Source of the DNA: Desulfitibacter sp. BRH_c19
Lineage (GTDB): Bacteria; Bacillota; DSM-16504; Desulfitibacterales; Desulfitibacteraceae
Reading direction: 5' to 3'
Assembly: GCA_001515945.1 (NCBI GenBank)
Contig: LOER01000011.1
Location: 1 to 64,000, forward strand
Length of the DNA stretch: 64,000 bases
The notes under the pieces are model-generated. The model saw nothing but the letters and a program-made list of their open reading frames with translations. It searched no databases and had not been told where the DNA came from. This document shows positions 922 through 10,815 of the stretch, piece by piece (the stretch's first letter is position 1; the number at the start of each line of letters is the position of its first letter). Both the position numbers and the translations under genes were made by a program.

Positions 922-1821
922 CTATACTAGTTTTGCAATTAATTCTTCTTTATTGCCATATAAATAATCAATTATAGGCATTTCTATCATTGTATAAGCA
1001 CCAGGTTTTTGTTGAAAGCTAGCCCTTGCTGATGCAACCATAATTTGAGCAGTAAGGGCTGGATTGTTTATTCTCATTTCAAATGTAAATAATTGATTAT
1101 GAGTATATCCTGAAACACCCTTACGTTCCATTAAAACACCATGACCCATATCTATAAGCTTGTTAACATCATTAACAAAGAAAACCTTTGTTTCATCATT
1201 TATAAAGTAAGGGTCATTTAAGATTGCTTCTTCTACAGCTTTTGAATCTGCATTGCTTTCTAACTCAACATAAACGAGTCTTCTATGAATGCCTGTCCCA
1301 ACAGGAATTGTCATTGATAAAGCATCTTTAACACCGGAAATAGCTTTAACTACTACTGAGTGACCCATACTCATTCCTGGCCCGAAATTTGTATATGTAA
1401 TTCCCTTGGGTGCTATGAATTCAAACATAGATCGTATCATGGAATCGCTCCCCGGGTCCCATCCTGCTGAAATAACTGCTACTGAATTACCTGTTTTTGC
1501 ACTTTTTTGGAATGATGTGCGAAGATCAACAATTTTTTCGTGGATATCAAAACTATCCACAGTATTAATACCCAGTTCTAAAATGTCTTTACCATATTCC
1601 TCTACAGAACGTGTTGGTGTGCATAAAAGAGCTACATCTACTTCTTTAAGGTCTCTTATATCACTAACAATTGGAACGTTATTTAACTCTGGGGGAACAG
1701 GCTTTCCCACAGAACCAGATCTCCTTACTACACCAACTAATTGCATGTCTGGTGCAGCTTCAATTGCCTCATAAGCAAACTTACCAATATTTCCATAGCC
1801 TACTATAGCTACTTTGAACAT
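922..1821 (-). CDS. ddh: meso-diaminopimelate dehydrogenase
   Basis: Catalyses the one-step reductive amination of L-2-amino-6-oxopimelate to meso-diaminopimelate with NADPH, feeding lysine and peptidoglycan synthesis in the cytoplasm. The N-terminus has a Rossmann motif (VGYGNIG, residues 7-13). Further segments typical of Ddh are [10 protein letters not shown] (about 65-74), [10 protein letters not shown] (about 118-127) and GPGMSMGHS (about 147-155). At 299 aa it matches the shorter Ddh group. A GGAGG ribosome site precedes the ATG. The gene is monocistronic, faces the rRNA operon, and ends at a strong hairpin. Confidence 0.93.
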
Positions 1822-2090
1822 AAATATTTTTCCTCCTTTATAATATACAAACTAATTCTTTAATAAGTTAACATTAGATGGTTTACAAGTCAATACTAAG
1901 ATTGATTATTATTATCCTTCGGAATATGGGTAGAATATACATAAATAATAAAAAATACAATATTATAGGGTTTCTAACATAAAATATTAAAAAACTATCA
2001 TAAAAATCTAAAGAAATTAACCGAGTACATTTATCTAGTATGTACATAATTTGCTTATAAAAGAAAATAATTATTGGGGAGTTGAAAAAA
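1822..2090. other. Divergent intergenic region between ddh and the yaaL-like gene
   Basis: About 270 nt of very AT-rich sequence holding the promoters of two divergent genes. The minus-strand ribosome site of ddh (complement of TTCCTCC) is at 1830-1837. I see no convincing promoter consensus, riboswitch or small ORF. Confidence 0.4.
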
Positions 2091-2339
2091 GTGAAAGTCT
2101 TAAAAAGTATATTCCGGATTAATAAAATGAGCAGAATATGTGATCAAGATGATCTTTCTAGATTGTTATATGAAATCAATGAGGCAAAGGATCAGTTTAA
2201 CTATGCACAACAAAACTTAAATAATGCTGAGGAAATCTTTATTGATGTAGCTGCTAAAGAAGTAGATTATAGCAAAAGCAGGTTAAATGCACTTTTAAAA
2301 AAGTACAAGGAGGAGAGAATTAAAATGGATCAGGCATGA
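2091..2339 (+). CDS. DUF2508 (YaaL-like) family protein
   Basis: A small, charged, probably cytoplasmic helical protein of 82 aa. The core (EINEAKDQFNYAQQN...AEEIF, then DYSKSRLNALLKKYKEE) resembles the DUF2508/YaaL family, whose biochemical role is unknown. YaaL lies next to bofA and an rRNA operon in B. subtilis, and an rRNA operon lies just upstream here as well. The start GTG at 2091 is chosen over the TTG at 2082 because the GGGGAG ribosome site (2076-2081) is 9 nt before it and abuts the TTG. Family assignment is by pattern only. Confidence 0.6.
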   Translation: MKVLKSIFRINKMSRICDQDDLSRLLYEINEAKDQFNYAQQNLNNAEEIFIDVAAKEVDYSKSRLNALLKKYKEERIKMDQA

Positions 2340-2382
2340 AGTTGTTCTTTCAATATGATAAAATAAGGTAAACTAATGATCT

Positions 2383-3120
2383 ATGGGATGTGACATGGTG
2401 ACTGATAAGATAGAGAAAATTCTTGTGATAGATGATGAGGTAACTTTTGTAAAAGGATTAAAGTTACAATTAGAAAATCATGGACTAAGTGTTGAAACTT
2501 CTCATAATGGTTTAGATGGATTAGATAAAATCAAAGAAAATGAATATAGTTTAGTTGTACTTGACCTAATGCTACCAGGAATGGATGGTATTGAAGTGTG
2601 CCGCAGAATAAGAGATTTTTCAGTAGTGCCTATCATAATGTTAACAGCTAAAGAAGATGAAATAGAGAAGATATTAGGGTTAGAAGTTGGGGCAGATGAT
2701 TATTTAAATAAACCTTTTAATTTTAGAGAACTTTTAGCTAGAATAAAAGCATTGTTAAGAAGGGTATCTTGGGATGATACCGATAAGGAAGAAAAACAAC
2801 AAATTAAAAAGTATACAACCCCTATAGGAAATCTGTCCATCCAATTGGATACAAGAAAAACCTTCCTAGATAGTAAAGAAATTATATTGAGTACAAAAGA
2901 ATTTGAAATATTTACCCTGTTATCCCATTTCCCTGGCAAGATTTTTAGTAGGGATGAATTACTTGATAAGGTTTGGGGATATGATTACTATGGCAGTCCA
3001 AGGACTGTGGATGTCCATATGAGAAGACTTAGAGCTAAAATAGAGGCTGAGCCCGAAGAACCACAAATAATCTGTACTAAATGGGGAATGGGTTATTATT
3101 TTAATGGACAGCGCAGGTGA
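2383..3120 (+). CDS. OmpR/PhoB-family DNA-binding response regulator
   Basis: Cytoplasmic transcription factor of a two-component system. The receiver domain (about 10-125) has the acidic pair in VIDDE, the phospho-acceptor Asp61 in VVLDLMLPGMDG, the Thr in MLTAK and the Lys in NKPFN. The C-terminal winged-helix domain (about 145-240) has the typical DVHMRRLRAKIE recognition region and ends in GMGYYF. It lies 6 nt ahead of the histidine kinase gene and forms an operon with it. ATG at 2395 or GTG at 2398 are possible alternative starts. The signal sensed cannot be told from sequence. Confidence 0.93.
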   Translation: MGCDMVTDKIEKILVIDDEVTFVKGLKLQLENHGLSVETSHNGLDGLDKIKENEYSLVVLDLMLPGMDGIEVCRRIRDFSVVPIIMLTAKEDEIEKILGLEVGADDYLNKPFNFRELLARIKALLRRVSWDDTDKEEKQQIKKYTTPIGNLSIQLDTRKTFLDSKEIILSTKEFEIFTLLSHFPGKIFSRDELLDKVWGYDYYGSPRTVDVHMRRLRAKIEAEPEEPQIICTKWGMGYYFNGQRR

Positions 3121-3126
3121 TAGCAT

Positions 3127-4530
3127 ATGAAGTTTAGCTTAAGGGTTCGGCTTGTTTTAAGTTACCTACTGCTTATAGGTTTTCTTGCTTTGGCTTCAGG
3201 ACTTTTGTTGTTCAATTATTTTAAAAGTGAATATGAAAGCCAATACAGAGTTAATACATTTACTCAAGGAAGCATAGTTTCTAATGCTATTAGATATCAT
3301 TTAGACAGGCCTTCCATAGTAATTGAAGAGATAAAAGAATTGAGCAGACAATTCTCTTTACGAATTTTAATCATAGGCATGGAAAACAGGGTGATATTAG
3401 ATTCTCAAAGTGGACAGGCTAATGATCTTACAGGTGAGATAATAAATCATGGTGAAATTATTACGGCACTTCAAGGTAATAGTTCTGCACAAATTTATTC
3501 AACACCAGATTATGGTGAAGTAATGTATAGCGCAATACCTATCTTTAGAGAAGAGCAAGTAATTGGAGCAGTATTTCTTTCTAAATCTTTAAATGAATTC
3601 TCCATTTTAAAGAATCAAATTTTAAATAGAATACTATTAAGTACAGGTTTAGGAAGCTTGATTACTGTTATCTTTAGTGTTATATTTGCTAGTTACCTGA
3701 CTAAACCATTAAATAAACTAACACGTGCATCTGGGAAGTTAGCTGAGGGTAATCTGGCATATCGCGTAGATTATAAATCAAAGGATGAGTTTGGACAATT
3801 AGCGGATACATTTAACAAAATGGCCGAAGAGTTGGAGAACCAGGACATTATAAAAAGAAGATTTATTGCGGATGCTTCCCATGAAATAAGAACACCCCTT
3901 AGCACAATAAAAATTCTTGTTCAGTCACTACAAAATTCCAAGGATCTTGATAAGGATAAAGTCAATGAATTTTTAGCTGATATGAATATGGAAATTGATA
4001 GACTTTCAACCCTAGTAAATAACCTATTGGAGTTAACAAGACTGGAATCACAAAAGGAAAAAATAATTAATTTTGAGGTAGTTGAACTCGACTCACTAAT
4101 AAGAAAGATTTGTCATAGGTTTAACATACTTGCACAGGAGAAGAACATTAAAGTGTTGGTTGATGTACCTAAGATAAAAGTAAGTAGTGAATATACTTCT
4201 CTGTTTAGGATAATTCATAACCTAGTGGAAAATGCCATTAAATATACTCCAAGTGGAGGAATTGTAGAAATAATACTGCTTGAAAGTGATGACAGAATTA
4301 CATTAACTATTAAGGATTCCGGAGTTGGAATAACGCATGAGAATTTGCAAAAAGTTTTTGATAGGTTTTATAGGGTTGATGGTGCTAGAACTGGTGCACA
4401 GGGCGGCTTTGGTCTGGGGTTATCACTAGTGAAAGAATTAAGCTCAAGGCTGAATATAGATATTTCTGTGGAAAGCCAATTGGGAAAGGGAACAAAGTTC
4501 ACTTTATATTTACCCAAAGCGAATTACTAG
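3127..4530 (+). CDS. HAMP-domain sensor histidine kinase
   Basis: Membrane sensor kinase partner of the preceding regulator, 467 aa. Order of parts: transmembrane segment (about 8-30), extracellular sensor domain (about 31-165), second transmembrane segment (about 170-190), HAMP linker (about 190-243), HisKA domain with the phosphorylated His252 in DASHEIRTP, and a HATPase_c domain with N box (HNLVENAIKY), G1 (DSGVG) and G2 (GGFGLGLS). The architecture is that of PhoR/ResE/WalK-type kinases. The gene 111 nt downstream is a GerMN lipoprotein, so the system may respond to the envelope, but that is inference. Confidence 0.93.
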   Translation: MKFSLRVRLVLSYLLLIGFLALASGLLLFNYFKSEYESQYRVNTFTQGSIVSNAIRYHLDRPSIVIEEIKELSRQFSLRILIIGMENRVILDSQSGQANDLTGEIINHGEIITALQGNSSAQIYSTPDYGEVMYSAIPIFREEQVIGAVFLSKSLNEFSILKNQILNRILLSTGLGSLITVIFSVIFASYLTKPLNKLTRASGKLAEGNLAYRVDYKSKDEFGQLADTFNKMAEELENQDIIKRRFIADASHEIRTPLSTIKILVQSLQNSKDLDKDKVNEFLADMNMEIDRLSTLVNNLLELTRLESQKEKIINFEVVELDSLIRKICHRFNILAQEKNIKVLVDVPKIKVSSEYTSLFRIIHNLVENAIKYTPSGGIVEIILLESDDRITLTIKDSGVGITHENLQKVFDRFYRVDGARTGAQGGFGLGLSLVKELSSRLNIDISVESQLGKGTKFTLYLPKANY

Positions 4531-4641
4531 GTATTAATGCTTTTTAATATTTGTGTAACAATTTTAAATTATATGTAACAGATGTTAAAAAGATTTGTAA
4601 TAATATAGAGTTATCGTAGTAGGTGAAAGGAGTGATACCTA

Positions 4642-5472
4642 GTGAAAAAATTATCACTATTGTTTCTAGTTATTTTAATTGGTCTATTGATAAGTGCTTG
4701 TGGTAATGGAGCGCTATATGGTCAATCGCCTCCACTAAAGCCTTCAGATGATGCCCCTGTAGTTGAACCTGATGTGGCAACTGAAACTGCTGAAGTTGCT
4801 ATATACTTCTCAGACTGGCAAGCCCAACATGTAATACCTGAATTTAGGGAATTGGAGAGTGGCGAAACTAATCTAGCAAAAAGAGTAGTTCTAGAGTTTT
4901 TGAAGGGACCTGAACAACCCCATCTTCATAGGACATTTCCTGAAGATACAGAGCTTATAGGAGTGGAGATAAAAGAGGAAATAGCATATGTGAATTTCAA
5001 AAGTGGGATAAGTATTCCTGGAACGGCAGGTGAGGCTGCTGCAATTAGATCACTATTTTTAACACTTACTGATTTACCAGGAGTGGAAATGGTACAGGTC
5101 CTAGTGGAAGGGAGAAGTGATGTGAGCTTTGGAGGACATTATTTATTATCAGAACCATGGGAAAGACCTGAAATTGTCACTTATCCAGTATTCATGGATG
5201 AAGAGCGTGCTAAGTGGCTGCAGGACAGAGCAGAAGATGGGTTTGAAACATGGAGATTTAATCCAGAGGAGGTTGCTGCTAAAGAAGGAAGAATGCTAGG
5301 TTTTAGTTCAGAAACAGAATTTGAGCTAATTGGAATCATTCAAGATACTGTACCCACAGCATCAGTTAAAGCCATTCATATGGGCGAAGAATATATCATT
5401 GAAATGATTCAACCTCTTGAAAAGGGTGAAGCAGGTGTATGGATGATTATTGAGTGTAGTATAGGTAGTTAA
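4642..5472 (+). CDS. GerMN-domain lipoprotein
   Basis: Predicted lipoprotein of 276 aa on the outer face of the membrane. A signal sequence ends in a lipobox (LISAC, Cys20). The GerMN domain (about 50-165) contains EFLKGPE, FPEDTELIGVEI and the VNFKSGI strand. GerMN domains occur in the sporulation/germination protein GerM. A further C-terminal domain of about 95 residues ends in GVWMIIE and may be a separate beta module. The GTG start at 4642 has a GAAAGGAG ribosome site. It follows the two-component genes in the same direction. Confidence 0.85.
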   Translation: MKKLSLLFLVILIGLLISACGNGALYGQSPPLKPSDDAPVVEPDVATETAEVAIYFSDWQAQHVIPEFRELESGETNLAKRVVLEFLKGPEQPHLHRTFPEDTELIGVEIKEEIAYVNFKSGISIPGTAGEAAAIRSLFLTLTDLPGVEMVQVLVEGRSDVSFGGHYLLSEPWERPEIVTYPVFMDEERAKWLQDRAEDGFETWRFNPEEVAAKEGRMLGFSSETEFELIGIIQDTVPTASVKAIHMGEEYIIEMIQPLEKGEAGVWMIIECSIGS

Positions 5473-5499
5473 CCTAAAAATTAAAAGGTGCAAAAAGTT

Positions 5500-5535
5500 T
5501 TACCCTTACTCGTAAAAGTAAGGGTTTTATTTTTA
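5500..5535 (+). terminator. Rho-independent terminator
   Basis: A 9-bp stem (ACCCTTACT at 5502-5510 with AGTAAGGGT at 5517-5525) is followed by a T-rich run. It ends the transcript of the GerMN lipoprotein gene. Confidence 0.85.
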
Positions 5536-5653
5536 TGCTTAACTTTCCGTTTATTCCCAGATATATAGTTGTAGGATTAGGGAAAAATCTGAATATAGAT
5601 GTTGATATAGTGATGTTCTTACTACTTGGTGCCATATCAAAGGAGTTTTTGTA

Positions 5654-6097
5654 TTGAAAAGGGATATAATAGTTTTTGGCGCATTGGCTGGAATAATAGG
5701 GAATTTGGTTAAATTAGGTGTTGCTCTACCATTATACTATGTGGGATTAATTAAAACAACATATCTACATATAGCAAGCGGATATCATGGTAACCATACA
5801 TTAGGCAGCATCTTTTCTATTATAAATGGAGTTTTTTCAGATTTTGTCTATGCTGCTTTTTTAGGAGTACTCTTTTATATAATTCTAAGGTATACTGATA
5901 TGAAATATGTTGGATTAAAAGGAATTTTTTTAGGTGGTTTTATACACGTTATTAATAATGGGGTTCTATTATTTGGTGATTTTAATAAAATTTCAATAGA
6001 TGATCAAACTTCGGTTTTACTAATAATACCCACCATTATTTTTGGGTTTTCAGCATGTTGGATAATAAAAAGAATAGAAAAAGGCCATATGAAATAG
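5654..6097 (+). CDS. Hypothetical four-helix membrane protein
   Basis: A 147-aa integral membrane protein with about four hydrophobic helices (near 5-30, 45-80, 85-110 and 118-138) and a positively charged C-terminus. I do not recognise the family. The TTG start at 5654 is supported by an AAAGGAG ribosome site at 5639-5645. It stands alone between two terminators, so it is probably monocistronic. Confidence 0.6.
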   Translation: MKRDIIVFGALAGIIGNLVKLGVALPLYYVGLIKTTYLHIASGYHGNHTLGSIFSIINGVFSDFVYAAFLGVLFYIILRYTDMKYVGLKGIFLGGFIHVINNGVLLFGDFNKISIDDQTSVLLIIPTIIFGFSACWIIKRIEKGHMK

Positions 6098-6113
6098 CAG
6101 AATTGAGCATTAG

Positions 6114-6138
6114 CCTTGCGGAAAAGCAAGGTTTTTTT
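6114..6138 (+). terminator. Rho-independent terminator
   Basis: Stem CCTTGC (6114-6119) and GCAAGG (6126-6131) with a run of T residues. It closes the preceding membrane-protein gene. Confidence 0.85.
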
Positions 6139-6230
6139 GGTTTAAAATATGAAAGATTTAGCAGTTATTTTTATTTTGAGGATCAATATATTTATAGTGG
6201 AGGTGAATGGAGAATATTAGGAGGGGTTTT

Positions 6231-7004
6231 ATGAGGCTTTACTATATTGGCAGAAGGGAAAAATTCATTGCTTGTATTGTGAGTATATGCATTTTACTTG
6301 TAGCCCTGAGTTTCTATTTAAAACCATGGGAGGCAGTTACTAGTAGTAGGAGTAATAGGTTATTACCTATTTATAAGGTAGCAAGTGAGGAGAAAAACCT
6401 GGCTATTAGCTTTGATGCTAGCTGGGGTGCCACTAGAACGGACAGGATATTGGATATTCTAGATGAGTATGAAGTAAAAACAACCTTCTTTTTAGTTAAT
6501 ATTTGGCTTGAGGATTATCCAGATAAGGCAAAAAAGATTATTTCCAGGGGACATGAAATTGGTATGCATTCAGTAAGCCATCCGGATTTCACAAAGCTAA
6601 GTGAAGAGCAAATAAAAAAGGAACTACTTAACAACCAAAAAATGATCAAGGATATAACAAGTTTTGAGGCAAATCTGTTTAGACCACCCTTTGGAGCATA
6701 CAATAATCGGCTCATCCAAATATGTAGCGAGCTTAATATTTATCCTATCCAGTGGAGTGTTGATTCTCTTGATTGGAAAAACATCACATCAGGTGCCATG
6801 GTTGAAAGGGTCATAAAAGCGGATGCAGGCGATATAATCTTATTTCATAACGATGGGGAAAATACTCCAGATGCTTTGATTGAGATACTAAAAGATTTCA
6901 AAGAAAGAGGGTTACAGGTAGTACCTATCTCAGAGCTGATATATAAAGATGACTATTATATTGATGTTAATGGTGTGCAGCATACAAGAAAAGGAATGGA
7001 TTAA
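6231..7004 (+). CDS. Polysaccharide deacetylase (NodB-type, CE4) family protein
   Basis: Membrane-anchored or secreted carbohydrate deacetylase of 257 aa; CE4 enzymes remove N- or O-acetyl groups from peptidoglycan or chitin-like glycans. One N-terminal transmembrane segment (about 11-31) precedes the NodB domain (about 55-235). Motifs are SFDASWG with the metal/base aspartate, HSVSHPD with the metal histidines, and RPPFGAYN. The FDASWG form is the one seen in sporulation-type PdaB-like enzymes. The start at 6231 follows AGGAGG (6219-6224) with ideal spacing; an upstream in-frame ATG at 6207 has poorer spacing. It stands alone. Confidence 0.88.
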   Translation: MRLYYIGRREKFIACIVSICILLVALSFYLKPWEAVTSSRSNRLLPIYKVASEEKNLAISFDASWGATRTDRILDILDEYEVKTTFFLVNIWLEDYPDKAKKIISRGHEIGMHSVSHPDFTKLSEEQIKKELLNNQKMIKDITSFEANLFRPPFGAYNNRLIQICSELNIYPIQWSVDSLDWKNITSGAMVERVIKADAGDIILFHNDGENTPDALIEILKDFKERGLQVVPISELIYKDDYYIDVNGVQHTRKGMD

Positions 7005-7117: not shown

Positions 7118-7168
7118 TATAGACATCCAAAACGAAGTTTCAGACATAAAAAGCGAGGATTGAGACAT
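7118..7168 (+). promoter_or_regulatory. Triple 9-bp direct repeat, candidate LytTR operator array 1
   Basis: Three 9-mers (TATAGACAT at 7118, TTCAGACAT at 7139, TTGAGACAT at 7160) are spaced exactly 21 bp start to start, with 12-bp spacers. This is the known geometry of LytTR-domain regulators such as AgrA (two 9-bp repeats, 12-13 bp apart). It lies about 74 bp upstream of the YvrJ-type gene. The likely binder is the LytTR regulator encoded at 9904-10653; that is inference. Confidence 0.7.
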
Positions 7169-7241: not shown

Positions 7242-7403
7242 ATGAATGGGATCAATGAATGGCTTAACGCTATTGGAAATGTTGGCTTCCCTATTGCTAT
7301 AGCCATATATCTTCTAATGAGGTTTGAAAAGAAAATTGATGTTCTAAAACAAAGGGTTGATCAACTAGGACAAGCAATCCGAGATCATACAATTGGCAGG
7401 TGA
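7242..7403 (+). CDS. YvrJ family small protein
   Basis: A 53-aa peptide with one hydrophobic helix (NVGFPIAIAIYLLMR, about 12-26) followed by a charged amphipathic tail. The NVGFPI...YLLxRxEKK pattern is that of the YvrJ family, whose function is unknown and which resembles small holin-like peptides. The start ATG at 7242 has a very strong GGAGGAGGTGG ribosome site; a longer reading from 7167 begins inside the operator repeat and is not credible. The repeat array upstream places it in the presumed Agr regulon of this locus. Confidence 0.75.
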   Translation: MNGINEWLNAIGNVGFPIAIAIYLLMRFEKKIDVLKQRVDQLGQAIRDHTIGR

Positions 7404-7469: not shown

Positions 7470-7479
7470 AACAATATTT

Positions 7480-7557
7480 AAATAGGGCAAAGCCATCGAA
7501 AGGTGGTGACGCAAAGCTATGGGTCTAAAGCTATAAGCTATGACTGCCAGGTTGCAT
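7480..7557 (+). ncRNA. Cyclic di-GMP-I (GEMM-I) riboswitch aptamer
   Basis: The conserved GEMM-I core is readable in order: GGGCAAAGCCATCGAAAGG (with the GAAA tetraloop), GGTGACGCAAAGC, the tetraloop-receptor-like side TATGGGTCTAAAG, and the closing strand GACTGCCAGG. It is followed within 10 nt by a terminator hairpin, then by the Agr-like operon beginning at 7748. Bases CCAGGT (7547-7552) at the aptamer 3' end can pair with ACCTGG (7583-7588) in the terminator, an alternative fold that would let ligand binding favour termination. The on/off direction is inferred. Confidence 0.92.
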
Positions 7558-7563
7558 TAATAA

Positions 7564-7604
7564 AAGGTTGTTCATCAGGAGTACCTGGAACAGCCTTTTT
7601 ATTT
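7564..7604 (+). terminator. Riboswitch-linked intrinsic terminator
   Basis: Stem AGGTTGTTC (7565-7573) with GAACAGCCT (7588-7596), extended by CAGG/CCTG inside, then a T-rich run. Because it sits between the c-di-GMP aptamer and the quorum-sensing operon it is probably the expression platform. Confidence 0.88.
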
Positions 7605-7644
7605 TTTAATCTCTATTTTACACATTAAATATCCTATACGAAAT

Positions 7645-7695
7645 TTCAGACATTGAAAAGGAGGTTTTAGACATTAAAAGCGAGGATTCAGACAT
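7645..7695 (+). promoter_or_regulatory. Triple 9-bp direct repeat, candidate LytTR operator array 2
   Basis: TTCAGACAT (7645), TTTAGACAT (7666) and TTCAGACAT (7687) are again exactly 21 bp apart with 12-bp spacers. Spacer sequence is also partly shared with array 1 (AAAAGCGAGGA). It lies between the riboswitch terminator and the first gene of the Agr-like operon, as expected for autoinduction by the operon's own LytTR regulator. Confidence 0.75.
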
Positions 7696-7747
7696 GACAG
7701 AAAGGAATGGGTTGAGGAATATCAAATAATTAGGGGGTGAGATAAAA

Positions 7748-8215
7748 GTGGATAAAATGCCATTAGTAGCTGTATTGTTAATATCTATACCAGAAGAAAT
7801 TATGATTTCGGCTCTTGGACTTATGCTGTTTGGAATTAAACCACCCATTGGAAAGTTGGTGCTAATAGGTGTAGTACAAGCAACAATTTCATATTTTGTT
7901 AGAATGCTACCTATTATTTTTGGGGTTCACACTTTGCTGCAAGGACTATTATTTACAGTAGTTATCTGGTTAGTTTTACGTGTACCCTTTAGATTTGTCT
8001 TAGCAGCAATGCTGGTAAGCATATCAATTTATACAGTAATTGATGCAACTTTTGTACCAATGCTTTTAGATATCACGGGCATACCTTTAGAAGTTATTTT
8101 AAATAATGCAAGATTGCGGATACTCTTCTTTTTACCCCAGGGGGTAACCATGTTACTTGTTGTTTTACTTGTTTACTTTTTTGACTTCAGGCTTATAAAT
8201 TATAAGTTTCTATGA
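7748..8215 (+). CDS. Membrane protein, candidate receptor half of a split AgrC
   Basis: A 155-aa very hydrophobic protein with about five transmembrane helices and no soluble domain. I do not recognise a named family. It is the first gene of the Agr-like operon and sits 28 nt before a histidine kinase that has only two transmembrane helices. Ordinary AgrC receptors have six or seven helices fused to the kinase, so together the two proteins could form one receptor; this is inference. Start GTG 7748 follows GGGGGTGA with good spacing. Confidence 0.55.
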   Translation: MDKMPLVAVLLISIPEEIMISALGLMLFGIKPPIGKLVLIGVVQATISYFVRMLPIIFGVHTLLQGLLFTVVIWLVLRVPFRFVLAAMLVSISIYTVIDATFVPMLLDITGIPLEVILNNARLRILFFLPQGVTMLLVVLLVYFFDFRLINYKFL

Positions 8216-8243
8216 AGTATTATAATTAATGAGGAAGGTGAAA

Positions 8244-9146
8244 ATGGATACTATTAATAGAGCATTTCCTATAATTATTATCATTACATTTCAACTGATG
8301 ATATTAGCACTTCTAAATTTAAGTAGTTTTATTTCAGCACAGGGAGTATTTATCGCAGGGACACTAACTAGTTTTATGTACCCCATGAACATTATAATTG
8401 GCATTTTGACAATAATTTCAATTGTACTAGTTCGTCGGGTACTGGAGGTGACAGAAGAAGAGGTAAGAAAGCAGGTACAGTTAGAAAATATTGAAAATCT
8501 TGAAAGTTTAATTACTACCATGAGGGTACAGCGTCATAACTTCAATCACGAGCTACAAACTGTTTATGGACTTTTGGCAGTAGATGAATATACTGAAGCA
8601 AAAAAATATCTAGAAGAAACCATGTCAGAAGTAGTTGTAACCAATAATCTTATTAGATTAGATGATCTTGGTGTGAGTGCACTCCTACATGTCAAGAGCA
8701 GTCAAATGGAAAGCATGGGTATTAAATTTGACATAAATATACAAACAAAAATACAGAAATTCCCCCTAAAAACCCATGAAATTAATCTTATTCTATCAAA
8801 CCTTTTGGATAATGCCATTGAAGCATTAAAATCAAGAAAACTTTCACAACAACCTACCATAAGTCTAGACCTTGCCAGAGGAGAAAACAATTATGTTTTA
8901 TCTGTTGCCAATGATGGACCAAGTATTCATGTTAAAGTAAAAGAAAAACTCTTTTTACCAGGCTTTTCTACAAAAACTAAGAACAGAGGCATGGGACTAT
9001 ATATTGTCAAGCAAATTATAGAAAAGTATAATGGCACAGTTGTTGTTAATTCTAATTCCAACTGGACCATGTTTATTATACAAATTCCCACAGCAGGGAG
9101 GAGAGATAATGAATCTTCGTTTGCTATCTCTAAAGCTAGCACATAA
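8244..9146 (+). CDS. AgrC-type (GHKL) sensor histidine kinase
   Basis: Kinase of a peptide quorum-sensing system, 300 aa. Two transmembrane helices (about 7-30 and 38-62) are followed by a coiled stretch and the dimerisation/phospho-acceptor helix with QRHNFNHEL, His98 being the expected phosphorylated residue as in AgrC. The ATPase domain has LSNLLDNAIEAL (N box), the G1-like ANDGP, and GMGLYIVK (G2). Start ATG 8244 is chosen because GAGGAAGGTGA lies just upstream; an ATG at 8229 overlaps that ribosome site. The 3' end overlaps agrB by 38 nt. Confidence 0.88.
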   Translation: MDTINRAFPIIIIITFQLMILALLNLSSFISAQGVFIAGTLTSFMYPMNIIIGILTIISIVLVRRVLEVTEEEVRKQVQLENIENLESLITTMRVQRHNFNHELQTVYGLLAVDEYTEAKKYLEETMSEVVVTNNLIRLDDLGVSALLHVKSSQMESMGIKFDINIQTKIQKFPLKTHEINLILSNLLDNAIEALKSRKLSQQPTISLDLARGENNYVLSVANDGPSIHVKVKEKLFLPGFSTKTKNRGMGLYIVKQIIEKYNGTVVVNSNSNWTMFIIQIPTAGRRDNESSFAISKAST

Positions 9147-9762
9147 TCTTGGTAATAAACTAGATTATGACCAGGACTCTGTAGATGTGTTAAGGTACGG
9201 TTTTGAAGTAATAATAACAGGTTTAATAAAAGTGGTTATTCTTTTTTCATTGGCAAGTTTACTAGGTATTCTCCCTCATGTTTTAGTTATCTTTGTAACT
9301 TCAGGTATTTACCGCTTACTGTCAGGGGGAGTACATTTAGCTACATATAGTCGTTGTTTGATTTTTGGTCTGATAATTTTTATTGCTATGGGAAAGATAT
9401 CCCAAAACTTTACCCTGATAGCTTTACCTACTATTATTACCTTACTAGTTTTTGTAACTTTAATCAGCCTCCTTATAAGTTTGAAATGGGCTCCTGCGGA
9501 AACAGAAAACAAACCCCTTTCCGATGATGAACAACCTAAACTTAAAAGGCTCACGATTATCTGGATTTTTATATGGTCAAGTCTAGTGAGTATATGTCTT
9601 TTAATATTTCCAATAAGCCAGATTAATTCACTCATAATAGGCAGTATCTTTGCCCATGTAACCCAGGCCTTTAGCCTAACCCCTGCAGGATATAGGGTTG
9701 TCGGCTTTATAGATAGATTAATGGGCAAAATTTTAGCGAAAGGAGGAGAAGTAAATGTTTAG
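9109..9762 (+). CDS. agrB: AgrB-type accessory gene regulator processing protease
   Basis: Integral membrane cysteine endopeptidase that cleaves the C-terminal tail of AgrD and helps cyclise it. The 217-aa protein shows the family hallmark SGGVHLATYSRC, with catalytic His76 and Cys83 seven residues apart as in known AgrB proteins, plus about five hydrophobic helices. Start ATG 9109 follows GGGAGGAGA. It overlaps the kinase gene and ends 5 nt into agrD, so translation is coupled. A cytoplasmic loop (about 130-147) is unusually acidic and proline-containing. Confidence 0.93.
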   Translation: MNLRLLSLKLAHNLGNKLDYDQDSVDVLRYGFEVIITGLIKVVILFSLASLLGILPHVLVIFVTSGIYRLLSGGVHLATYSRCLIFGLIIFIAMGKISQNFTLIALPTIITLLVFVTLISLLISLKWAPAETENKPLSDDEQPKLKRLTIIWIFIWSSLVSICLLIFPISQINSLIIGSIFAHVTQAFSLTPAGYRVVGFIDRLMGKILAKGGEVNV

Positions 9763-9889
9763 TAAAATGAACAGAGCTATTTTAACTCAATGTGCTGCTA
9801 CTGTGATGCTTATTGCAGGATGGGTAGTACAACCAGCTAGTTTCGTAACCTGGTATCAGCCGGAAGTTCCAAAAATGCTAAGGAAATAG
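9755..9889 (+). CDS. agrD: AgrD-type cyclic lactone autoinducer pre-peptide
   Basis: A 44-aa precursor. The N-terminal amphipathic/hydrophobic helix (1-26) is followed by the predicted signal core Ser-Phe-Val-Thr-Trp (29-33) and the AgrB recognition tail YQPEVPKMLRK (34-44). The xQPExPKxLR tail directly after a five-residue ring is the arrangement of clostridial AgrD peptides such as C. perfringens AgrD, where the core starts with Cys. Here Ser29 replaces Cys, so the ring would be a lactone, not a thiolactone. AGGAGGAG lies 7 nt before the ATG, which overlaps the 3' end of agrB. Confidence 0.88.
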   Translation: MFSKMNRAILTQCAATVMLIAGWVVQPASFVTWYQPEVPKMLRK

Positions 9890-9903: not shown

Positions 9904-10653
9904 ATGAAGGTCTTAATAGTAGAAGATGATCCCAAGATGAGGCTAATCCTAAAAAAAAGCCTAACAAATATCCCTGGAACAGAGGTTATTGGTGAGGCTG
10001 TTAATGGTACTGAGGCTGTGGAAATGACAGAAGCTTTAAGTCCACAGGTAATATTTATGGATATTGACTTGCCTGAAAAAGATGGATTTAAAGCTTCACG
10101 AGAAATTCTAGACATCAATCCCGAGATTTTTCTAGTTTATGCAACAGGTTTCAGTAACTATATGCAAGAAGCTTTTGAACTGTATGCCTTTGATTACCTC
10201 CTAAAGCCTTATAAAATTGAACGAATAAAGGAAACCATTGAGAAAATAAATTATCTGTTGAAACTCAAAGAAAGGGCAAGATCCAGGGATGTAAAACCTG
10301 AGCATCAAATCACAAATTCTAGAAAAGTAGCGCTTAAGGTTGACCGTAATCTGGTGTTTGTTGATGTCGAAAAGATAATTTTAGTGGGGAGGGAGAAAAG
10401 AAAGACGATAATAGTTACTAGCGATACTAAACAGATGAGCACTTATGAAGCATTAGATACGCTAGACAAAAGAATTGATAAAAACAACTTTTTCCGTGCT
10501 CATCAAAGTTTTCTAATCAACCTGGATATGGTAGCCGAAATCCAACCTTGGTCCAGAAGTACCTACCTGGTGATCTTCAACAATACCAAAAAAACGGCAT
10601 TTATGACAGAAGTGAAATACAAGATTCTACAACAAAGATTTAAACTAGAGTAA
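9904..10653 (+). CDS. LytTR-family response regulator (AgrA-like)
   Basis: DNA-binding regulator at the end of the Agr-like operon, 249 aa. The receiver domain (1-118) has VEDD, the phospho-acceptor Asp53 in FMDIDLPEKDG, and LKPYK. A linker (120-140) leads to a LytTR domain (about 143-247), with the FFRAHQSFLINL segment typical of the fold. It lies 14 nt after agrD. LytTR regulators bind paired 9-bp repeats, and two arrays with that geometry stand upstream of 7242 and 7748. Confidence 0.92.
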   Translation: MKVLIVEDDPKMRLILKKSLTNIPGTEVIGEAVNGTEAVEMTEALSPQVIFMDIDLPEKDGFKASREILDINPEIFLVYATGFSNYMQEAFELYAFDYLLKPYKIERIKETIEKINYLLKLKERARSRDVKPEHQITNSRKVALKVDRNLVFVDVEKIILVGREKRKTIIVTSDTKQMSTYEALDTLDKRIDKNNFFRAHQSFLINLDMVAEIQPWSRSTYLVIFNNTKKTAFMTEVKYKILQQRFKLE

Positions 10654-10671: not shown

Positions 10672-10719
10672 AGTTGACATGAAACGATAATTTTAGACTT
10701 AAAATGAGGACTCAGATAT
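10672..10719 (+). repeat. Degenerate third copy of the LytTR-type repeat array
   Basis: AGTTGACAT (10672), TTTAGACTT (10692) and CTCAGATAT (10711) resemble the 9-mers of arrays 1 and 2, but spacing has slipped to 20 and 19 bp. Flanking text (AAAATGAGGA before, ATAGAAGGGAAT after) is also related to the earlier copies. No gene follows on the plus strand before the bidirectional terminator, so this looks like a decayed duplicate. Confidence 0.45.
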
Positions 10720-10760
10720 GATAGAAGGGAATATGAGAAGATTGTGTTAAGGAAAATGCA

Positions 10761-10815
10761 TAATAATAAAATGGAGTTCAAACTAAACGCCAGTTTGAAC
10801 TCCATTTTATTATTA
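10761..10815. terminator. Bidirectional terminator, 24-bp inverted repeat
   Basis: A perfect 24-bp stem (10761-10784 with 10792-10815) around a 7-nt loop, with A-rich and T-rich shoulders. It separates the plus-strand Agr operon from the convergent minus-strand metallo-hydrolase gene and can serve both. Confidence 0.92.

Follow-up and report, generated by a model that had tools for sequence, protein, structure and literature searches.

A c-di-GMP-I riboswitch and a LytTR-type repeat array in front of an agr quorum-sensing operon of Desulfitibacter: a predicted two-input arrangement

Connections between quorum sensing and c-di-GMP usually run via proteins, with quorum sensing controlling the enzymes of c-di-GMP metabolism. 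In the stretch of Desulfitibacter sp. BRH_c19 DNA analyzed here (64,000 nucleotides, referred to below as the window), a class I c-di-GMP riboswitch lies ahead of an agr operon, and the messenger seems to exert a direct, RNA-mediated effect on how the quorum-sensing genes themselves are transcribed. The locus thereby raises the question of how far, and in which direction, c-di-GMP would control peptide signaling. Our overall model, which we hold to be rather likely, is that of a riboswitch-gated leader (OFF logic) combined with an array-driven autoinduction promoter. The features on which it is built are the following.

7118 to 7168, + strand: array 1, three TTNAGACAT-like repeats at 7118, 7139 and 7160, upstream of yvrJ; predicted LytTR operator
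7242 to 7403, + strand: gene for a YvrJ-family small membrane protein (PF12841, 59 bits), the last gene before the riboswitch
7476 to 7559, + strand: c-di-GMP-I (GEMM-I) riboswitch aptamer (Rfam RF01051, 77 bits)
7547 to 7552, + strand: CCAGGU, the 3′ strand of aptamer P3, candidate anti-terminator strand (from the sequence)
7562 to 7599, + strand: intrinsic terminator hairpin, AAAAGGUUGUUC..CAGG AGUA CCUGGAACAGCCUUUU, with a U tract at 7600-7607
7645 to 7695, + strand: array 2, TTCAGACAT, TTTAGACAT and TTCAGACAT at 7645, 7666 and 7687; predicted LytTR operator
7748 to 8215, + strand: receptor half of a split AgrC-like sensor, 155 aa, GTG start (homology to fused AgrC)
8229 to 9146, + strand: kinase half, an AgrC-like histidine kinase with SPOB_a and GHKL ATPase domains (domain matches)
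9109 to 9762, + strand: AgrB peptide protease (PF04647, 131 bits)
9755 to 9889, + strand: AgrD pre-peptide (TIGR04223, 26.7 bits, cut-off 19), adjoining agrB
9904 to 10653, + strand: AgrA-like response regulator with a LytTR DNA-binding domain (PF00072 and PF04397)
10672 to 10721, + strand: array 3, degenerate, with clear repeats at 10692 and 10713, downstream of the operon (identified from the repeats)

The aptamer and the operon behind it

The GEMM-I aptamer of the original prediction is borne out by a covariance-model scan, which returned 77.0 bits over the full RF01051 model (positions 1-87 of 87; gathering threshold 35, E-value 2.2e-13). In an alignment of 17 copies, the window aptamer carries the same pocket letters as the other copies (GGGCAAA, GACGCAAAG and the 3′ GC). 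Specifically, the conserved ligand-pocket residues are all present, namely a G at the position that we take to be G20 of Vc2, GACGCAAA and the 3′ C, and a G at the Vc2 G20 equivalent is found in the window copy and in the other agr-linked copies compared. The two-helix fold of the aptamer is backed by covariation among ten agr-linked aptamers, in which 97% of pair cells form, 11 of 20 pairs show two-sided changes, and the covariation is 0.567 as compared with 0.278 after shuffling (none of 500 shuffles as high).

These data bear on two alternative accounts of the RNA. The first, a non-functional remnant standing beside the operon by chance or duplication, could draw on the number of GEMM-I copies in this genome (10) and on the loss or degeneration of the riboswitch in some related operons (L062, with a terminator-like hairpin only; L079 and L083, degenerate). 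We regard it as very unlikely in view of the 77-bit score, the intact pocket letters, the two-sided compensatory changes among agr-linked aptamers and the occurrence of the riboswitch in separate AgrB clades. Equally hard to credit is an RNA that senses another cyclic dinucleotide, for example 3′,3′-cGAMP, as the window copy and the compared agr-linked copies have G at the Vc2 G20 equivalent. In favor of such a ligand, Geobacter GEMM-I riboswitches reportedly sense cyclic AMP-GMP, and one copy in the present genome, L002, has A at the specificity position. The window aptamer is a predicted c-di-GMP sensor.

With respect to its surroundings, the yvrJ gene (7242-7403) is found directly 5′ of the riboswitch, behind its own array of three 21-bp repeats. 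Membership of yvrJ in a conserved unit was considered and rejected, since no such gene was seen 5′ of the operon in relatives. Regions 5′ of the aptamer align poorly between loci, and scanning them in the window for promoters brought up no sigma-70 consensus.

On the 3′ side, domain matches and, for the first ORF, homology to fused kinases confirm the anticipated operon order of split receptor, kinase, AgrB, AgrD and LytTR regulator. The 155-residue membrane ORF that opens the operon has no Pfam match; over its full length it can be aligned, at 35-37% identity, with the N-terminal receptor portion of fused AgrC-like kinases, so that its description as part of a split receptor is correct. The split is not peculiar to this genome, a notion that we rejected on finding 49 split versus 31 fused receptor genes among 80 surveyed. 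In AgrB, the catalytic-type residues H76 and C83, seven residues apart, are invariant in 10 sequences. The AgrD core reads ..SFVTW|YQPEVPKMLRK, and because a Ser occupies the predicted ring position, the ring is predicted to be a lactone.

Terminator, competing pairing and direction of the switch

Immediately beyond the aptamer, the hairpin at 7562-7599 consists of 16 pairs with a ΔG of -18.5 kcal/mol and is followed by UAUUUUUU, in agreement with the terminator that had been proposed in cis. This hairpin begins 3 nt past the aptamer and is fully compatible with the bound aptamer. It shows one double-sided compensatory change relative to the congeners, and the leader fold as a whole beats 200 of 200 shuffles (z -3.0).

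The proposal that this leader is a two-state switch has fared less evenly. The pairing on which it was founded, CCAGGU (7547-7552) with ACCUGG (7583-7588), is present in the sequence and is identical in the congener loci L021 and L022, but once the leader of the window is complete, the terminator fold is favored over the anti-terminator fold by 9.5 kcal/mol. It follows that a two-state switch must be kinetic, or that termination is high without ligand. Such a kinetic choice between the folds is possible according to the folding model, because the anti-terminator deficit falls to only 1.7 to 0.6 kcal/mol when the transcript ends at 7588-7590. In terms of the relatives, whose intrinsic terminators 3′ of the riboswitch were also examined (those of Pelotomaculum and G060 were missed by the automatic search, read by eye and then folded), the competing aptamer-terminator pairing is stronger in most cases than it is in the window. 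In most species (BRH_c20a, Desulfocucumis, BRH_c4b, G367 and Pelotomaculum), partial transcripts that stop before the terminator 3′ arm fold with the 5′ arm base-paired to the 3′ end of the aptamer. Duplex energies place the complementarity of cognate aptamers and terminators only modestly above that obtained with shuffled terminators, with single p values of 0.03-0.62, which is no more than suggestive.

The original prediction gave no sign for the switch. Class I ON switches are known in other bacteria, and the weakness of the window anti-terminator in the unbound state would suit a switch of this type, in which bound c-di-GMP would block the terminator and raise agr expression in sessile cells. 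We nonetheless consider an ON switch improbable, given that the terminator starts so close behind the aptamer and is compatible with its bound form, and that the competing pairings need aptamer 3′ strands that the ligand would lock. The evidence points to an OFF switch. Because the ligand would lock the aptamer 3′ strand, thus permitting termination, our model has c-di-GMP likely switching the leader OFF. The functional class I switches that have been assayed in C. difficile are uniformly OFF (PMC6200980), which further argues against the ON alternative.

Repeat arrays and the second input

Overlooked in the original prediction were three 21-bp repeat arrays, together with the upstream yvrJ gene. 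Array 2, which consists of three TTNAGACAT repeats at an exact 21-bp spacing, is located between the terminator and the first operon gene. Direct repeats two helical turns apart, triplets included, are among the operator types known for LytTR regulators (PMC11347149). When 450 nt upstream of each of 88 receptor genes were scanned, triple arrays at 21-bp spacing were found 5′ of 25 (a number in which some near-identical loci are counted twice), as compared with 0 of 1760 shuffles, and other spacings (15 to 29) yielded 0-1 triple arrays among the same 88 genes. In most array-bearing operons the array starts 103-115 nt before the receptor start, a nearly fixed distance. An array between terminator and first gene is shared by the window, the congeners, G003, BRH_c20a, Desulfocucumis, BRH_c4b, Pelotomaculum and G367; the congeners also have one at the place of array 3, and strong arrays in the genome under study are confined to this locus.

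We infer that the operon's own regulator uses array 2 as its operator and that an autoinduction promoter is located there. As this conserved array sits between the terminator and the first gene, autoinduced transcription probably starts 3′ of the riboswitch. The operon would then probably have two inputs, with basal expression coming from a c-di-GMP-gated leader and autoinduction from a regulator-driven promoter outside riboswitch control. Specifically, RNA polymerase from a promoter upstream of 7476 would transcribe the aptamer. With c-di-GMP bound, the aptamer 3′ strand would be held in P3, the terminator at 7562-7599 would form and transcription would stop. With c-di-GMP scarce, the aptamer 3′ end would compete for the terminator strands and some polymerases would pass into the operon, such that read-through of the receptor, kinase, agrB, agrD and regulator genes would provide basal sensing and signal output. 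Upon build-up of the peptide, the phosphorylated LytTR regulator would bind the array of three 21-bp repeats at 7645-7695 and fire the second promoter, which, being 3′ of the terminator, would supply the autoinduced bulk of transcripts beyond the reach of c-di-GMP. Because the autoinduction promoter would escape the riboswitch, c-di-GMP is predicted to set a threshold for quorum sensing and to hold no veto over it. Cells with low c-di-GMP (motile) would be primed for peptide signaling, and high c-di-GMP would raise the threshold without vetoing cells already induced, which suggests that cells may 'talk' partly according to whether they are swimming or settling. The original prediction is upheld as far as the placement of riboswitch and terminator before agr is concerned, but its claim that peptide signaling would depend on c-di-GMP is too strong in view of the probable array bypass and of arrays that outlast the riboswitch.

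The same bypass could be more complete than our model assumes. A riboswitch that works and barely controls agr, with nearly all operon mRNA arising from the array promoter 3′ of the terminator, is a reading of lower probability that still deserves serious weight; jointly with it, the leader could be a separate, short terminated transcript, or act as a limiter of read-through from the yvrJ unit. The position of array 2 between the terminator and the start codon, nearly fixed at about -103 to -115, is what would be expected in this case, as are the dominance of the terminator fold in the window, the presence of array 1 before the gene just 5′ of the riboswitch, and the close Desulfotomaculia-type operons L059, L062 and L072, in which the array outlasts a lost riboswitch. 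Less readily accommodated are the retention of the aptamer with the operon across families and varied upstream contexts, the duplication of the whole module in G001, and L106, where the receptor gene directly follows riboswitch and terminator and an intervening array is lacking.

The region 3′ of array 3 (10733-10815) contains only a 5-codon ORF (MRRLC) and a perfect inverted repeat of 24 bp; the repeat is a possible bidirectional terminator, and array 3 may be the source of a very short transcript.

Among known systems, the agr P2 operon of S. aureus shares AgrB, AgrD, an AgrC-type kinase and an AgrA-type LytTR regulator with the present operon, and it autoinduces through LytTR direct repeats in its own promoter region. 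Unlike S. aureus, the window has a receptor split into two ORFs, the order receptor-kinase-B-D-A, Ser in the AgrD core, a riboswitch leader upstream and three repeats. The LytTR operators of CoxC/RcoM share the direct-repeat triplet two helical turns apart, but differ in repeat sequence and regulator and serve CO sensing, not quorum sensing (PMC11347149). The Cd1-type c-di-GMP-I riboswitches of C. difficile (before flgB, an adhesin and ZmpI) likewise place a class I aptamer before an operon, with an OFF logic that is demonstrated there and predicted here (PMC6200980); they control effector genes, whereas what follows here is a cell-cell signaling system, and the operator of a second regulator, as predicted, separates its first gene from the terminator. 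In C. difficile 027, agr influences c-di-GMP enzyme genes and flagella (PMC3754575), which also links the two systems but with agr acting on c-di-GMP enzymes; here, in reverse, c-di-GMP would act on agr through the riboswitch. We found no report of a c-di-GMP riboswitch before agr, with a LytTR array, in the open-licence literature. Riboswitch and agr system are each known, and it is their wiring in cis with a LytTR array that appears to be undescribed in that literature. If confirmed, riboswitch, terminator and LytTR array would form a compact, testable element deciding entry to quorum sensing, one that seems to have been gained or lost several times in Clostridia and that has cultured relatives among its carriers, namely Desulfocucumis palustris NAW-5 and Pelotomaculum terephthalicicum. 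Desulfotruncus arcticus lacks the riboswitch.

Recurrence of the module and its c-di-GMP context

A riboswitch and terminator 5′ of agr operons were found at 11 distinct receptor loci out of 78, a proportion that is shaped by locus choice and is not a frequency estimate. Two congeners have orthologous operons (AgrB 71% identity) in another neighborhood, complete with riboswitch, terminator and arrays, and this order is also present in a genome from a sister family, where the aptamer is of the c-di-GMP-I-GGC type (RF03167, 80.9 bits). Further riboswitch-bearing operons, in Clostridiaceae BRH_c20a, Desulfocucumis palustris, Peptococcaceae BRH_c4b and Pelotomaculum terephthalicicum, came from scanning GTDB genomes, and those in G367 and G060 from searching another 80 AgrB loci with covariance model R1; lineage statements here rely on kinship labels and named genome records. 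Moreover, congener G001 carries another, divergent agr operon (L024), which opens with the regulator gene, has a fused AgrC and lies behind a riboswitch of its own, and a near-identical riboswitch-terminator-array module occurs twice in G001:C21 (L021 899-982 and 6359-6442), within 6 kb and ahead of two different genes. A match in L038 proved to be L021 899-982 again and was rejected as a further copy. The genes 5′ of the operon vary, while riboswitch and array remain attached to it. By these comparisons, the pairing of riboswitch and agr is conserved across families and genomic contexts, and the reading of the two as chance neighbors was rejected because their order recurs in several lineages.

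On the AgrB tree the riboswitch trait needs 7 changes, 6 of which are forced by well-supported branches; shuffles needed 10.6, and 1 of 500 was as low as the observed value. The tree thus indicates that the riboswitch has been gained or lost repeatedly, in 6-7 events. Since several close operons keep the array without it, the riboswitch is, from comparative evidence, dispensable for agr. A terminator-like hairpin is kept in L062 where the riboswitch would be, and a low-threshold Rfam scan found no hidden riboswitch in L056, L059, L062 or L064.

GEMM-I-like RNAs scoring 18-34 bits were also noted at L083 (6054-6141 and 11864-11947) and L079 (2904-2990). These retain the terminator and are linked to agr arrays or agrC, and their core GACGCAAAG is replaced by a GTAGTAA-type sequence; they would be either decayed copies or a variant with a changed ligand.

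The genome under study encodes 15 GGDEF domains and holds 10 GEMM-I copies, the agr-linked one and nine others. Several of these nine stand before flagellar genes (the flgB operon), pilus genes, or genes for c-di-GMP turnover (two HD-GYP and two EAL). Given this abundance of GGDEF domains and the position of several GEMM-I copies, agr by its leader sequence joins a recognizable motile-sessile regulon. The copy L002 (G000:C41:57595-57680, minus strand), which precedes a lipoprotein-like gene, has A at the Vc2 G20 equivalent, a mark of cGAMP-type riboswitches.

At sibling AgrB loci of the same lineage, namely L028 (G000:C33) 1362-6347, L026 (G001:C19) and L053 (G003:C28), a receptor like the 155-residue ORF adjoins a membrane GGDEF and HD-GYP protein, which makes peptide-controlled c-di-GMP turnover possible there. 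In L141 (G118:C1), on the minus strand at 405-488, a c-di-GMP-I riboswitch follows an agr operon and precedes an HD-domain gene. Together, the sibling loci and the G118 arrangement lead us to suggest, tentatively and as something we would not yet expect to hold, a recurrent two-way circuit in Clostridia, in which the riboswitch would gate agr and the receptors of sibling AgrB loci would steer c-di-GMP via GGDEF/HD-GYP proteins. Population density and the lifestyle messenger would, if so, set each other.

A structured leader, with no Rfam match at the gathering threshold, recurs at L022 2281-2345, L023 1210-1275, L021 (minus strand, near 650-700) and L052 (8488-8560 and 8690-8750). It has the form CCCGGGCAAA..TTTGCCCGGGAGTACACCC..CTTTACC or CCTGCCAATG..CATTGACAGGGACACCCTTTACC, and lies after LytTR arrays and before genes of probable exported proteins.
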